A DNA stretch of 64,000 bases. Origin: Atopobium fossor DSM 15642 (lineage in GTDB: Bacteria > Actinomycetota > Coriobacteriia > Coriobacteriales > Atopobiaceae). The translations under genes were made by a program, and so were the position numbers. Location of the stretch: positions 186,001 through 250,000 of the forward strand of contig NZ_AXXR01000003.1 in the NCBI RefSeq assembly GCF_000483125.1, read 5' to 3'. This document shows positions 10,196-16,213 of this stretch, piece after piece. The notes under the pieces were generated by a model, which made no database searches, had not been told where the DNA came from, and worked only from the letters and a program-made list of their open reading frames with translations. The first letter of the stretch is position 1. Each line of letters begins with the position of its first letter.

Positions 10196-10329
10196 CTCAT
10201 GAATAATACTATTCCCAGAGAGTCTTTTCGTCAAGCATGCGGCATTGCAATAATTATGAAAAGTGGGCAGAGCAAGCAGCAAGGTACTTTATGCTTGAGA
10301 GGAACACATTTTTACGAAAGGTCATCAGT

Positions 10330-12165
10330 ATGACTATGATTCCTATAAATAATGCCCTTTACCTGTATAAGCTCCTTAAACAAGAGTTGGGGTATGGGAG
10401 ACAGATTCCTCTTTCAGACGTGGAAGCTGTGCTTTTGGCAGATGATATTACTCCTGCAGATCTTGATTGCACGGATATTGGCGCTCTCATGGAAGCACTT
10501 CCCGAGTTTGTAAAACTTACCGTATTTAAAAAAGGCCGTATCTTTGCCACCATCATGCCTCACGCAGATTTTGATCAAGCTCTTGAGAAAATCGATGAAC
10601 CCACAACTGCAGATAAAGCTGCCACAAAAGGCAAACCCTGGAAGCGCAAGCGTAGTTCAAAGCTGCTTCGTCCACAAAAGCCTCAACACAAGGAAGCACC
10701 TGCTCCTATACGTACGGAATCAAAATCTGAGACAGAGCAAGAGCCTGAACCAATACCAGTACAAGATTCTGAGCCTGAATTTGAAATAGCGCCCAAAGTC
10801 ATTGACGAGCCCACAAGCAAAAGCACGTCTGAAGTGGCACCCATAAGAGAAGCCGAAGCATTAGACGAGGCAGTATCAGAAACAGAACCAGAAACCAAGC
10901 CAGAGCCTGACTACTCATGGCACGACTACCCCATCCCCATGCCTGAAGCAATTCCTACGCCAAATATTTCTCTTAATATTACATATGCGCCTCAAACACC
11001 GCTTGAGGAACCCTCCGTTCCTGCGCAGACTTTTGCAGCCCCCTCACAGGTAGAAGCCTACATCCCCGTGGTTTTACAATCCACTTTGCCACAGGATTTT
11101 ATTAATGAAGTACTTTGCCCCAACAATCTTCTTAAGAAAATCTACGAACTTGCACCCATCAACACTAATGCCCTTGAACTTTTACGAAGCAGCTGGAACA
11201 CCGCGCGCACTACTGGTTCACTTTTTGGAACTCGTAGCAGCATCTCCTTTGCACTCATTAACTGCAATCAGACCACAGCTACCATCCAAAGAAGCAAAAT
11301 GCCTGGCCATGTAAAACCTTGGGAAGTTGTAAGCGTTGTTCAGTCCAATCAGCCAATACTGGGTAAAACTCCACAGACTTATTGTGCTTCTGATGAGCTG
11401 CTTATAACACGTGTCACAGCTCGTCCTCAAACAAGTGCACTTAATGAGCTGGCAACATTTGCCCTCATGGGCAGCTGGGAAAACATAGCAGCAACACTCA
11501 AGGATTTTGCTCCTACCACAACATTTTTACCTACCGAACTTTGCTCATATATAAGCGCTGTATTCTATCGGGCAAAGCAAAGTGGTACACTCATCCAAGC
11601 CTCTACTGGTGATTTTATCGCTTGCAATACAGGCTTGCTTACCCCATTTAACCAGGTAATCTACCTATGCTTTACTCCATCTGCAAAAAAATCGTCCGCA
11701 AAAATAACTCCTTGGCAATTCGCAGGCTTTGCCACTACCCAAACTCCTGGTTTGGGTGAAAAGCTCACCAACCTTCCACAGCTACCCCCAGCCCCCAATT
11801 TTGAACTGCATGCTAATGTGCTTAGTATTACTCCAGAAGCTACGCTGCAGCTTCCCACTAAACAAATTGCAGATATGCTGCCCGACTCCATACTAAACAC
11901 GCTACCCAAGCAAGACTTCATTGATGCTTGCAATAAGTCCCTCATTACCGCCCAGTACAACTACCGAACAGCAACTCCGGTTTACAGCACACAGCTCAAT
12001 CAAACACTTGTAGCACTTCCTGTTGATGCCACAGGCCTAGAAAATTATGCCCTTATTCTTAAGCCTAGCGAGAATACCTATGAGCTTGCCAATGTAGTTT
12101 CTCGCATTGTTGCACGTGGAGCCGCACAAGTCATAAGCCTTGAGCTTCCTAGCTGGTTAGTCTAA
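10330..12165 (+). CDS. LOTUS/OST-HTH-like plus DUF3825 domain protein
   Basis: Probable cytosolic, possibly RNA-binding protein of unknown role. Residues ~8-70 (LYKLLKQELGYGRQIPLSDV through LPEFVKLTVFKKGRIFATIM) fit a LOTUS/OST-HTH winged helix. A long Glu/Pro/Lys-rich linker follows (~75-235). The last ~240 residues fit DUF3825: an LNELATFAL start, TELCSYISAVFYRAKQSG, ACNTGLL, PWQFAGF, NYRTATPVYSTQLNQTLVAL and terminal LPSWL. LOTUS and DUF3825 are known to co-occur in bacterial proteins. ATG 10330 has AAAGG 8 nt upstream; ATG 10291 with AAGG is an alternative. It stands alone, divergent from the metal ATPase. Confidence 0.7.
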   Translation: MTMIPINNALYLYKLLKQELGYGRQIPLSDVEAVLLADDITPADLDCTDIGALMEALPEFVKLTVFKKGRIFATIMPHADFDQALEKIDEPTTADKAATKGKPWKRKRSSKLLRPQKPQHKEAPAPIRTESKSETEQEPEPIPVQDSEPEFEIAPKVIDEPTSKSTSEVAPIREAEALDEAVSETEPETKPEPDYSWHDYPIPMPEAIPTPNISLNITYAPQTPLEEPSVPAQTFAAPSQVEAYIPVVLQSTLPQDFINEVLCPNNLLKKIYELAPINTNALELLRSSWNTARTTGSLFGTRSSISFALINCNQTTATIQRSKMPGHVKPWEVVSVVQSNQPILGKTPQTYCASDELLITRVTARPQTSALNELATFALMGSWENIAATLKDFAPTTTFLPTELCSYISAVFYRAKQSGTLIQASTGDFIACNTGLLTPFNQVIYLCFTPSAKKSSAKITPWQFAGFATTQTPGLGEKLTNLPQLPPAPNFELHANVLSITPEATLQLPTKQIADMLPDSILNTLPKQDFIDACNKSLITAQYNYRTATPVYSTQLNQTLVALPVDATGLENYALILKPSENTYELANVVSRIVARGAAQVISLELPSWLV

Positions 12166-12204: not shown

Positions 12205-12323
12205 ACAGTAAAAGGTGTCTACCATGTCAACTCGACAGATAACACTTTGCTTGACAAACAGTAAAAAACAGTAAAGGATATATAAGACAGTAAAGAACAG
12301 TAAAGAATCTGTAAAACAGTAAA
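12205..12323. repeat. ACAGTAAA direct-repeat array in front of an AAA ATPase gene
   Basis: Copies of ACAGTAAA start at 12205, 12258, 12268, 12287, 12297 and 12316; a weaker CTGTAAAA is at 12309. From 12258 on the steps are 10, 19, 10 and 19 nt, about one or two helical turns, so all lie on one face of the DNA. A consensus -35 hexamer TTGACA is at 12251-12256; the matching -10 is unclear. Probable regulator-binding repeats. Confidence 0.75.
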
Positions 12324-12335
12324 AGAGGCATTGGC

Positions 12336-13370
12336 ATGTCGGCTAATCCATACACCCTTTCCTTTGGAAAAGAGCCTACGCAACTTATTTCTCGTCTTTT
12401 TTCTCAACACGAAATCTTAGATAACTTCGCTCAAAAAGAACCGCAACAACAGGTATATGTAATAACAGGGGTTCGTGGTGTTGGAAAGACTGTCTTTCTT
12501 ACTGAAGTCACTACACGCATCTCAGAGCAAGGCAGATGGATAACAGTCGAACTTAATCCTAATAGAAATCTCCTTGAATCGTTAGTAGCCAAGCTATCCA
12601 GCGAAAATACTCTGGCGCAGATTTTCCAAAAGGCAAAAATTAACCTATCGTTCTTTGGTTTTGGACTTGAAGTTTCGGGAGTCACTCCCATTACGGATGT
12701 AGAAGTCGCTCTTGAACAAATGCTAAAGAGCATTAAGAAACATGGAAAGCATCTACTTATAACCATAGATGAAGCCTCAAATACCAAAGAAATGCGTGAG
12801 TTTGTAAGTGCGTTTCAAATCCTTATCCGTAAAGAATTACCAGTATATTTGTTGGTAACAGGTCTTTATGAAAACATCCGTGAGCTACAGAATACGAAGA
12901 ATCTTACGTTTTTGTATCGTGCACCACGCATTGATTTGGGGCCCTTGAATCAAGGTGCCATCATTGCAAACTATAAGAAGACATTTGGATTGCAGGATGA
13001 TCAAGCTCGTCAAATGGCTAAGCTTACTTCTGGTTACTCTTTTGCATTTCAAGTGCTAGGGTATCTCACATGGCAAGCTCATGGAGATTATCAGTCTATT
13101 TTAGATACCTATAAGCAGTATCTCGAAGAGTACGTATACGAGAAAATTTGGTCTGAGCTTTCTGAGAAAGACCGCTTTGTCGTGCGAGGAATTGCAGATG
13201 CTGAAGGTGGCAAAGTTGCGGAAGTTCGTAAAAAGCTGCATATGGAAAGCAATGAATTTAATCCCTATAGACAGCGCTTAATACGCAAAGGTGTTATCAA
13301 CGGAGATAAGCGCGGATACGTTTACTTCACGCTACCCTTCTTTGGAGAGTTTGCAAAAACTGCACTTTAA
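12336..13370 (+). CDS. AAA-family ATP-binding protein (ORC/STAND-like)
   Basis: 344-residue P-loop ATPase with a C-terminal winged-helix-like region. Walker A is GVRGVGKT (~46-53), Walker B LLITIDEAS (~145), sensor-1-like LLVTGLY follows, then a helical lid with GPLNQGAI and a C-terminal DNA-binding-like segment (LRKKLHMESNEFNPYRQRLIRKGVI). This architecture is that of the archaeal-ATPase/ORC-CDC6-like families common in Firmicutes and Coriobacteriia, whose function is mostly unknown; the C-terminal part is likely to contact DNA. GAGG lies 7 nt upstream of the ATG. The gene stands alone behind an iterated promoter element, suggesting autoregulation. Lower GC than its neighbours may mean acquisition. 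Confidence 0.75.
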   Translation: MSANPYTLSFGKEPTQLISRLFSQHEILDNFAQKEPQQQVYVITGVRGVGKTVFLTEVTTRISEQGRWITVELNPNRNLLESLVAKLSSENTLAQIFQKAKINLSFFGFGLEVSGVTPITDVEVALEQMLKSIKKHGKHLLITIDEASNTKEMREFVSAFQILIRKELPVYLLVTGLYENIRELQNTKNLTFLYRAPRIDLGPLNQGAIIANYKKTFGLQDDQARQMAKLTSGYSFAFQVLGYLTWQAHGDYQSILDTYKQYLEEYVYEKIWSELSEKDRFVVRGIADAEGGKVAEVRKKLHMESNEFNPYRQRLIRKGVINGDKRGYVYFTLPFFGEFAKTAL

Positions 13371-13387
13371 CAAATATTTACGTAGAC

Positions 13388-14356
13388 TTACACCAAAGCA
13401 AAGTATGCAACCACTGCAAGACCCAGCACAATGCGATACATACCAAAGGGCTGGAAATCATGGCGCTTTACAAAGCTCATCAAAAAGCGAACCGTTAGCA
13501 AGGAAAGTACAAACGCTACTAAACAGCCCACTCCTAAAATCATAAGCTCATGGTTAGTAAATGCATTTCCCTTAAGGAAAAACTTAACCAAACGCAACAA
13601 GCTCGCACCAAACATAACAGGGATGGCCAAAAAGAACGTAAATTCGGCAGCAACTGCACGAGAACATCCCAACAATAGACCACCAATAATGGTAGAGCCA
13701 GAACGAGAAGTACCTGGAATCATAGACAGAACCTGAAATGCACCAATACCTAAAGCCACCGGCCAGGTCATCTCAAACACATCGGTAATTTTGGCATCAC
13801 TATCGGCAAGCTCAGATACGCTCAATGTACTTATGTCAGGAGCTGCCATATGCTTAGGGGCAGTAAGACCGGCCTCCACACCAGCAAGTGCTGCCACAAC
13901 AGCATTTTTACCTTGGTCAAGCAGTGATTTTGCACGCGCTTCTCGGCGTTTCTCGATAACAAGAAAAGCTATGCCATATACGATTAGAGCAGCTGCAATG
14001 ACAAAAGGACTGCCCAGATGGTCCTCCATCCAATTATCGAGAGGGATGCCAATAACAGCAGCTGGAATGCACGCAACAATAATTTTTGCCCAAAGCTTCC
14101 AGGTATTGCTGCGCTCGGCAGTATTCTTGGTGCAAGACAGTGGATTGAGTTTGCTAAAGAACAAAATTACAACAGCAAGGATGGCCCCCAGTTGAATGAC
14201 CACTAAAAACATATCCCAAAAATCCTTGCTCACATCCAGCTTTACAAACTGGTCTAGCAACAACATATGGCCCGTAGAAGAAACAGGTAGCCATTCGGTA
14301 ATGCCCTCCACAATGCCAAACAAAATGGATTTAAGGATTTCTATAAGCAGATCCAC
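13388..14356 (-). CDS. uppP: Undecaprenyl-diphosphatase UppP (BacA)
   Basis: Integral membrane phosphatase recycling undecaprenyl pyrophosphate to the lipid carrier used for peptidoglycan; overexpression gives bacitracin resistance. Motif 1 is GIVEGITEWLPVSSTGH (residues 14-30) and motif 2 is IPGTSRSGSTI, holding the catalytic Glu and Arg/Ser residues. 322 residues exceeds the usual ~270 because of a hydrophilic, Ala-rich insert of about 45 residues (~138-190) between the two halves. The start is GTG with AGGAG upstream. It is convergent with the AAA ATPase gene, 17 nt apart. Confidence 0.95.
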   Translation of the reverse strand: MDLLIEILKSILFGIVEGITEWLPVSSTGHMLLLDQFVKLDVSKDFWDMFLVVIQLGAILAVVILFFSKLNPLSCTKNTAERSNTWKLWAKIIVACIPAAVIGIPLDNWMEDHLGSPFVIAAALIVYGIAFLVIEKRREARAKSLLDQGKNAVVAALAGVEAGLTAPKHMAAPDISTLSVSELADSDAKITDVFEMTWPVALGIGAFQVLSMIPGTSRSGSTIIGGLLLGCSRAVAAEFTFFLAIPVMFGASLLRLVKFFLKGNAFTNHELMILGVGCLVAFVLSLLTVRFLMSFVKRHDFQPFGMYRIVLGLAVVAYFALV

Positions 14357-14451
14357 GAACTTCTCTCCTTGCCGGGGTACGATTTTGCGTCACACTGCCA
14401 CACAATGACATATGCAAATGCACATGTTTTTACATAACACATTTTTATGTA

Positions 14452-15462
14452 TCAATAAATTTTTAAGTCTTTATTGTTTAGCATTCCACTAAACATCATA
14501 TGGTACATATCCTTAGATGATTCTTCTATTTTGGTAATGCTCGATATTTTATTTCCTGCATCCTTTGATGATGCCCCACAAAGATAAAAGGCTTCATTTT
14601 CCGTTCCATAGTCTATTGCAACATATCTATCGTGGTATTTTTTACCGGCTATCTTTAGCTTCAGGTCTATATTAGGATAATCTTTTCTAAAATCATCTAA
14701 GATATTTTTTGTGAGCATATCTTTATTTTTTACATTATCACTAAAGACTATGATTTGGGTTTTACCTCTTGCAGCTCTTAAAAGTTCTAATGTTTTAAGC
14801 CCTATATAGTTGTCTATCACATAAATACTTTTCTTTGCTGACTTATATATTTTTGTATAGGCAATATCTGCTTCTATCTTATCTCCGTTCATCAAAAGAA
14901 AGTGCTTGTATGTTTCCGGATCTATAAAATTATCCATTACCTTTTTCAAATCTTCTTTTGTGGCTAAGGTGTATATCTTTCTATCTAGCCTTGCTATATC
15001 TTTTGTATTTTGATTTGTTTGAATAGCTATTTGAGCTAATTCCTTCGCCCCTATAAAATCTTGGTTTTCAATGACAAAGTCTTTCATCTGCTTAAACATT
15101 CGTATTAAAGCCTTGCTCTGTTTAACTGCAAGCTCTCCCCTTAATACAGTCATAAGCATATAAATACCCTGCTCTGTAAAAGCAAAAGGCAAATACCTTC
15201 TTCCACCGGAGCCGGCTTCAGGTTTTGAGGTTAAAAATTTTGACCTCAAAAATTACCATTCATCTTTTGTAAGTTGAAATCTAAAATCATCATCAAATTT
15301 TTCTATGTTATTTTTGACTTGCTGATTAAAAGCTCTTGTCTCATATCCATAAATTTCAGCAAGTTCAAAATCAAGCATAACTTTTTGATTTCGTATATAG
15401 TGAATCTTATCCTTAATCGTATCTTCATTGATTACTATGATTTCTTTATCTTGCTCTGCCAT
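14452..15462 (-). pseudogene. ORF6N-domain phage-type protein broken by an in-frame stop
   Basis: Two same-frame pieces, 15253-15462 (69 aa) and 14452-15249 (265 aa), read as one protein across a TAA at 15253-15255. The first holds the ORF6N start (NQKVMLDFELAEIYGYETRAFNQQV, then FDDDFRFQLTKDEW); the second continues with LRSKFLTS, GGRRYLPFAFTEQGIYML and a PLD-like C-terminal part (HDRYVAIDYG ... YLCGASSKDAGNK). One base change, for example GAA to TAA, explains the break. AT-rich composition and phage-type family point to horizontal origin. A good SD (GGAAGG) precedes the first ATG. Read-through or re-initiation at TTG 15249 is possible but not shown. Confidence 0.8.
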
Positions 15463-15763
15463 AAAACATACCTTCCGATATATTCTTTTAAATATTCGTT
15501 CTAGTATCTTTTAGTTATCAAACAGTTTTCTTATAAGTAATCTAAAATCTTAATGTAATGCCTTAACAGCATTTTAAGTTTTCACGGCTACTATAACGGT
15601 ATTTTAAAAATCTATCTTGATTTTTATACGACCCTTGAACTATATCTACTCACCTTATTTTGTTTATGCTGTATTAAAAGTACTGAAGGTAGAATTGAAC
15701 ATATCAAAAGCACAACAAGGGTACGATAAATATGACAACAGCTTCGTGGATGAAGGAGGCATT
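15463..15763. other. AT-rich non-coding interval between ORF6N remnant and uspA
   Basis: About 300 nt separating two divergent genes. It carries the SD of the ORF6N gene at 15471-15476 and that of uspA (AAGGAGG, 15753-15759). Composition is strongly AT-rich like the ORF6N remnant. No RNA gene or clear -35/-10 pair was recognised. Confidence 0.5.
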
Positions 15764-16213
15764 ATGGCGCATTACAAAAACCTAGGCTATAAAAAGATCT
15801 TTGTTGCATTGGATGGCACTGAGGAACAGGATGCTGTGCTCAATCGCGCTATTGCCGTAGCAAAAAACAACCACGCCAAGCTGTATGTTGGACACGTTAT
15901 GGATTCTACTGCGCTTGAAACTGCAGGTACTTATCCTGTGGATCTCATCCCTAAGCTGGAAGCCCTCTTCCGCAAGTCTATAGAAAAGACCATTGAAACT
16001 ATTCAGAATGACCCCGAAATAGACGGCGTTGAGGTTGTTGTAAAGTATGGACGTGTGCGCGAGACACTTAAAGAAGAGCTGCTTGATCAGATTGAGCCTG
16101 ACCTGGTAATTTGTGGCGCCCGTGGTTTGTCTCCCATTAAGTATGCGTTGCTGGGTTCTATTTCTACCTTCTTGCTGCGTGCTACACCCTGTGACATTTT
16201 GGTGGTTAAGTAA
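15764..16213 (+). CDS. Universal stress protein (UspA family)
   Basis: Small alpha/beta nucleotide-binding stress protein. IFVALDGTEEQDAVLNRAIAVAKN opens the fold and the ATP-binding-type motif G-2X-G-9X-G-S appears near the end as GARGLSPIKYALLGSIS, followed by CDILVVK. 149 residues is normal. The start at 15764 has AAGGAGG 4 nt upstream; the 49 residues that could be read upstream lack family resemblance. It stands alone; role in this organism unknown. Confidence 0.9.
   Translation: MAHYKNLGYKKIFVALDGTEEQDAVLNRAIAVAKNNHAKLYVGHVMDSTALETAGTYPVDLIPKLEALFRKSIEKTIETIQNDPEIDGVEVVVKYGRVRETLKEELLDQIEPDLVICGARGLSPIKYALLGSISTFLLRATPCDILVVK

Follow-up and report, generated by a model that had tools for sequence, protein, structure and literature searches.

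The 64 kb stretch of DNA analysed here (the window) carries a gene for an AAA ATPase that is directly preceded by an array of short direct repeats, each a copy of the 8-bp word ACAGTAAA. Arrays of this kind also precede most homologues of the gene, and their spelling varies together with residues in the recognition helix of the encoded protein, so that the ATPase very probably reads the word of its own array, as judged from sequence. We consider it likely that the gene and its array form a self-addressed module, in which the ATPase would dock cooperatively on its own promoter array and shut or damp the promoter. Computation directly shows the array and that it is conserved together with the gene, as well as its placement on homologue promoters, the intact ATPase motifs and the covariation of the recognition helix. 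The coordinates of the features are collected in Table 1.

Table 1. Features of the ATPase gene and of the DNA preceding it, in window coordinates.
Feature	Position	Strand	Basis
Outlying ACAGTAAA copy	12205..12212	+	Exact match; upstream of TTGACA, 53 bp before first array copy
TTGACA, -35-like element directly before array	12251..12256	+	Read from sequence
Array copy 1, ACAGTAAA	12258..12265	+	Exact match
Array copy 2, ACAGTAAA	12268..12275	+	Exact match
TATATA, possible alternative -10, weak	12279..12284	+	22 nt from TTGACA; absent from promoter-prediction list
Array copy 3, ACAGTAAA	12287..12294	+	Exact match
Array copy 4, ACAGTAAA	12297..12304	+	Exact match
Degenerate copy TCTGTAAA	12308..12315	+	Read from sequence
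Array copy 5, ACAGTAAA	12316..12323	+	Exact match
AGAGG, likely ribosome binding site	12324..12328	+	7 nt before ATG
ATPase gene, 344 aa, AAA domain, lid and C-terminal winged helix	12336..13370	+	ORF, Pfam, model
Walker A, residues 45-52	12468..12491	+	G45, G48, G50, K51, T52 invariant
Walker B, residues 141-146, ending D145 E146	12756..12773	+	D145, E146 invariant
Winged helix-turn-helix, residues about 277-331	13164..13328	+	Structure model
Recognition helix, residues 305-318	13248..13289	+	Model; N309 codon 13260-13262

Six exact copies of ACAGTAAA lie ahead of the ATPase gene at the starts given in the original prediction, and five of them are packed into 66 bp immediately 3' of the TTGACA that the prediction had placed in front of the array; only its degenerate copy is displaced, as TCTGTAAA starts at 12308 and not at 12309. 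The steps between the five packed copies are 10, 19, 10 and 19 bp, and two of three helical positions are thus filled in each 29-bp period (10 + 19). Tandem Repeats Finder reports the same period for 12256-12324, which receives the top score (103) among 28 rows in the window. When the 170 bp preceding the gene are shuffled with dinucleotides preserved (n = 5000), the top mixed-letter 8-mer never exceeds three copies, as compared with six in the actual DNA. Over both strands of the 64 kb, ACAGTAAA occurs 8 times, against a mean of 2.56 and a largest value of 7 in 100 shuffles. Within the window's own genome, exact pairs of the word no more than 25 bp apart are confined to this site.

The encoded protein passes the gathering cutoff of Pfam PF01637 (ATPase_2; 39.4 bits against 33.2), and its Walker A and Walker B residues are invariant across 29 and across 53 aligned sequences. 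The gene is single-copy in its genome. The structure model (mean pLDDT 92.8) ends in a winged helix at the C-terminus, composed of helices 277-288, 294-301 and 305-318 followed by short strands. A sequence search of the PDB with the ATPase gives a best match of only E 0.47. Among the fold matches listed, the best are the archaeal PF01637 proteins PABY2304 (2QEN; Z 22.6, rmsd 3.7, 312 aligned residues, 12% identity) and SSO1545 (2FNA; Z 21.1, rmsd 4.5, 312 aligned), which resemble the window's ATPase over nearly the whole chain; the window's protein, for its part, is bacterial and its gene carries a promoter array. The ORC/CDC6-like shape proposed originally is right as a fold, but these archaeal ATPases are nearer.

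Structures of NLR proteins, CED-4 and ORC2 follow at Z 17-19. The Orc1/Cdc6 initiators share the AAA domain and the winged helix (1W5T, Z 19.1; 2QBY, Z 15.6), whereas the repeats in the window are short direct copies before the protein's own gene, with no origin role indicated. Identity with Orc1/Cdc6 is rejected by NCBIfam TIGR02928, for which the ATPase scores 13.8 bits against a cutoff of 181.3. The likeness to NLR and apoptotic NB-ARC ATPases (CED-4, Apaf-1 and plant NLRs) extends over roughly 285-300 residues at Z about 17-19, but the window's ATPase has no attached sensor or effector domain and falls below the gathering cutoff of PF00931 (14.8 bits against 23.5). Additionally, a distantly related P-loop is found in the candidate defence proteins PDC-S01 of PADLOC (8.3e-6 over residues 20-66), and 8 of 29 aligned ATPase members match one of these models at 0.001. 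PDC-S01 joins an ATPase to a PD-(D/E)XK domain (PMC12988326). The window's ATPase matches the P-loop stretch only and ends with a winged helix; the two best models cover just residues 20-66 and 26-83 and no Pfam nuclease domain is present, and the protein is not assigned to PDC-S01.

A search for close relatives yields 548 stretches encoding a relative, the best 80 of which (52-64% identical) come from Lachnospiraceae, other Clostridia, Coriobacteriia and two records labelled Spirochaetales; by eye, arrays precede nearly all of these 80. With paralogues from 27 genomes and further Coriobacteriia members added, the total set comprises 179 distinct proteins, a few of them fragments, from which 160 representatives below 90% identity were chosen by protein (Coriobacteriia, Clostridia and others). 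For 144 of the 160 homologues, the 150-nt upstream region contains at least three copies of a 7-mer, as compared with 3 of 159 downstream controls of the same length. The absence of repeats upstream of orthologues, which the original prediction had named as grounds against itself, is thus not what is observed. When each upstream region is compared with 100 shuffles of the same DNA, 116 of the 160 reach p<=0.01 and 133 reach p<=0.05, leaving 27 that fail to beat their own shuffles at 0.05. By source, arrays are found in 66/66 members of L031-L110, in 62/68 of the later-fetched paralogues and others, and in 16/26 from the first family search; L066, a record labelled Spirochaetales within the 160, has seven copies.

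Spacing is kept in these arrays while spelling is not. Among successive copies in the 144 homologues, 559 of 583 steps measure 9-11, 18-20 or 28-30 bp; the 10, 19, 10, 19 bp pattern of the window thus holds as a rule of the family. The words vary by gene and include CAG-, CTA-, TGA-, TAG-, CTG-, TTG- and TCG-TAAA, among others; CAG is the commonest variable trimer (50 of 110 members), and the remoter members have very different words, such as GCGTCTTAT, TTCTAAG or GGCGAACAA. This change of word from gene to gene is a feature that lies beyond the single-sequence view of the original prediction. In one case (L274, G156:C8, 1400-1700), a single ATPase gene is preceded by two separate arrays in a row. 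Inspection by eye of 12 distant PF01637 relatives from Actinomycetota (L260-L271) reveals no such array, and the rule therefore seems confined to a clade. By eye, a 13-bp tandem repeat is present before the gene of L261, and inverted repeats take the place of direct arrays upstream of L263 and L264.

The arrays of most homologues with a recognisable promoter overlap it. A promoter pair was defined as a TTGACA-like hexamer (<=1 mismatch) and a TATAAT-like hexamer (<=2 mismatches) 16-18 nt apart; such a sigma-70-like pair is recognised in 95 of the 154 homologue upstream regions with at least three copies, against 14.5 expected, and not in the other 59. The spacer is 17 nt in 77 of the 95 pairs, and the array overlaps the pair in 81 of the 95, which is the arrangement expected of an autoregulated operator array. 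The first copy most commonly starts 2 or 4 nt past the -35 hexamer, and the commonest -10 is TAAAAT (52), which, in the examples read by eye, consists of the TAAA of the second copy and the next two bases. With a median span of 76 bp and a median gap of 19.5 nt between the last copy and the start codon, a protein sitting on such an array would occupy the polymerase footprint. In the window itself the promoter geometry is blurred: only AAGGAT sits 17 nt from the TTGACA, and promoter prediction lists no + strand promoter. Because this promoter is off-consensus, repression at the window's gene is argued from the family.

The residues that may read the word were sought in 110 members with in-register xxxTAAA copies, over 301 alignment columns. 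Residue 309, in the recognition helix, ranks first of the 301 in shuffle-corrected, entropy-normalised mutual information with the three variable bases, followed by residue 298 in second place, 310 in fifth, 305 in fourteenth and 306 in fifteenth; in raw mutual information, residue 305 is slightly above 309 (1.49 vs 1.43). Of 61 members with N309, 59 have A as the middle base, as compared with 9 of 49 members with other residues at this position. The contact of an asparagine with an adenine is well known. With N309-P310 and ACAG-TAAA, the window's gene fits this rule.

Shared ancestry was considered by means of a tree built from residues 1-270, with the DNA-binding domain left out (218 branches, 280 columns compared). 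On this tree 12 changes of N309 and 17 of the middle base are counted, and 7 of the 12 share a branch with a middle-base change (p=3e-6 uncorrected, about 8e-4 corrected for 280 columns), which places the column first of 280. The well supported branches alone contain 4 independent pairs, of which on average 2.8 agree and 0.0 disagree, too few for significance. In a cruder count over 49 disjoint neighbour pairs, residue 309 is seventh, after 229, 247, 86, 210, 305 and 119; in this count the pairs with differing words are also less alike as proteins (63 vs 72% identity). Starting from the array in place of the protein, three proteins were found through CAGTAAA arrays alone. Two of them, L278 and L281, are new, with 79% and 66% identity to the nearest proteins used, and both have N309-P310; the third, L279, is identical to a protein already in the set. 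The covariation of word and recognition helix strongly argues for physical binding of the ATPase to its repeats, as the original prediction had suggested.

Spacing and covariation also bear on the least probable of the explanations considered, namely that the repeats function at the RNA level, or that they are a promoter repeat prone to slippage and have no dedicated binder. The later copies would indeed be transcribed, and the words differ freely between genes, as such an explanation would have it. However, neither slippage nor an RNA role is expected to keep helical spacing in 559 of 583 steps or to produce covariation with the recognition helix above that of other columns.

In the self-addressed module that we favour, the recognition helix of the winged-helix ATPase would read the 8-bp word, here ACAGTAAA, and several protomers would line up along the array, docked on neighbouring copies roughly a helical turn from each other, with a 10-bp step followed by a vacant position and a period of 29 bp. 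The docked protomers would cover the stretch from just past the -35 through the -10 and the early transcript, and this coverage would shut or damp the gene's own promoter. Binding or hydrolysis of ATP, or an undefined ligand, would set the state of assembly and release. Cooperativity, repression in preference to activation, and control by nucleotide are the steps that we infer. Alternatively, the ATPase might bind the array as an activator or switch that opens or remodels its own promoter, with positive feedback and a bistable on-state, in the manner of STAND activators of the MalT type on their targets. The covariation evidence for binding applies equally here, Walker A and B are invariant in the aligned members, and the fold relatives include signal-transduction ATPases and NLRs. 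The copies mostly occupy the spacer, the -10 and the 5' transcript, a position that makes activation unlikely: a protein bound there usually blocks polymerase, whereas activators usually bind upstream of the -35.

The promoter overlap and the covariation of word and recognition helix also support the second half of the original description of the repeats as "iterons or a cooperative operator". The first half is unsupported, since the gene next to the array encodes an ATPase_2 protein and no Pfam replication initiator, and is located on a contig of 345 kb in a genome of 1.65 Mb; a plasmid iteron replicon is rejected on these grounds. In the plasmid systems parC/ParR, omega (heptads) and KfrA, autoregulators likewise act on short direct repeats in the promoter of their own gene. 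The present arrangement differs from these in that binder and ATPase are one protein, no partner gene is conserved, and the words differ between paralogues. No account of such ATPase-promoter arrays was found among titles and the opening parts of abstracts, which leave subscription papers mostly uncovered.

Paralogues within one genome would read differently spelled or spaced arrays, and this would allow many copies to live in one genome. In one genome with ten paralogues the best 8-mers are all different, some only slightly. For proteins of 45-70% identity, the trimer is shared by 5 of 36 same-genome pairs and by 1259 of 4240 between-genome pairs (Fisher p=0.04), and the 4-mer by 2 of 36 and 674 of 4240, respectively (p=0.11; identity-matched p=0.13). 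At 55-65% identity, the 4-mer is shared by 0 of 13 same-genome pairs and by 416 of 1637 between-genome pairs (p=0.05; matched 0.03). Both same-genome pairs that share the 4-mer (L033/L155 and L159/L168) differ in spacing by eye, 10 vs 11 bp. By matrix score at matched protein identity, same-genome pairs are not significantly less alike in word (51 pairs, p=0.26). Taken from sequence counts, orthogonality of co-resident paralogues is suggested only.

The gene has no fixed surroundings. In the flanks of the window's gene and of the best 80 of 548 relatives, no ORF cluster spans more than 6 loci; no Pfam family has more than 3 members at 1e-5 (113 of 121 computed neighbours), and PADLOC gives at most 2 per model at 1e-15. 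A conserved partner gene is thus rejected after flank clustering, Pfam and PADLOC, and the flanks of close homologues include housekeeping genes. A homologue is present in 85 of 140 genomes of the family, many of them remote, and in a wider draw of the phylum 55 of 396 genomes have one at E<=1e-20 (five candidates scored per genome). The homologue is missing from the two other genomes of the genus, which have instead a low-molecular-weight phosphatase gene, on the opposite strand, between a DUF3825-type gene and uppP; this assignment is based on Pfam in G001 (2.9e-33, adjoining a 589-residue ORF) and on ORF likeness in G002. The patchy distribution suggests that the gene may travel horizontally as a module of its own; neither a boundary nor a means of transfer was found. 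Directly upstream of the ATPase in the window, 10237-12165 encodes a protein with a C-terminal DUF3825 domain (4.3e-19), and frames related to it precede uppP in both other genomes of the genus. On the other side, two neighbouring minus-strand ORFs at 14452-15462 resemble one broken gene in AT-rich DNA (GC 0.354 over 14001-16000), perhaps a second foreign insert near the ATPase.

These surroundings bear on a further alternative, in which the array would be an anchoring or maintenance site, centromere- or iteron-like, for ATPase assembled on DNA, and promoter control would arise as a side effect. The repeat geometry of plasmid parC and heptad arrays resembles that of the window's array, the repeats of plasmid partition loci double as operators, and 105 plasmid records contain a homologue covering at least 80% of the query at below 60% identity. 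However, clear arrays are seen by eye in only 3 of 8 plasmid copies, and the window's copy is in the large contig described above. The absence of a common partner gene and the housekeeping genes in the flanks of close homologues also argue against anchoring, as do ten co-resident paralogues with different best words, which partition does not need. We regard it as very improbable.

Arrays also occur without the gene. In a set of 30 genomes, mostly picked because they contain the ATPase, all but one of the 34 pattern matches have an ATPase match no more than about 310 bp away. When 397 genomes of one family are drawn regardless of the ATPase, 7 loci match, 4 at ATPase promoters and 3 elsewhere, and these three CAGTAAA-array loci without an adjacent ATPase contradict the notion that arrays exist only beside the gene and weigh against the self-addressed module. 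The first (L273, G153:C28, 2966-3010) is an orphan ACAGTAAACG array that immediately precedes an operon with an AbiEii toxin gene in second place (2.3e-28). G153 holds several ATPases, one of which, L284, has the related word CCAGTAAA with 11-bp spacing and might read the orphan array. The second (L277, G845:C34, 1482-1546) has a TetR-family gene downstream of it and, after that gene, an ORF resembling an ABC exporter; the single ATPase of this genome carries another word, TTATGGTAAG. The third (L276, G945:C216, 187-265) consists of TTGACA and an array cut off mid-copy with no ATPase behind it, and looks like the scar of a lost gene; elsewhere G945 has a 67-residue open frame matching 30 positions of the ATPase family.

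Carriage of this word by phages, or its use as a phage decoy, is rejected, as the viral evidence is negative within a scan confined to this word. The one viral contig with a four-copy pattern is a plain 10-bp tandem repeat, and the ORF list for its first 6 kb shows no ATPase. None of 27 viral stretches matching a peptide pattern encodes a relative, and a phage collection gives a single match, over 70 residues.

A broader reading, which we put forward tentatively as less than an even chance, is that of a fast-evolving word code: a large and patchy family of AAA ATPases of gut bacteria, without fixed neighbours, in which each member assembles on a phased array in its own promoter and co-resident paralogues are kept apart by word or spacing, in the way that incompatibility separates plasmid replicons. 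The DNA-bound assembly might then itself serve as the sensing device of a perhaps defensive or selfish response. For the self-addressed module, an abundant annotation, "ATP-binding protein", becomes a testable system in which the likely site, the apparent reading residues and the promoter are named. For the recognition code of winged helices, dozens of natural protein-word pairs are available in this family, which may also be a source of naturally orthogonal regulators.
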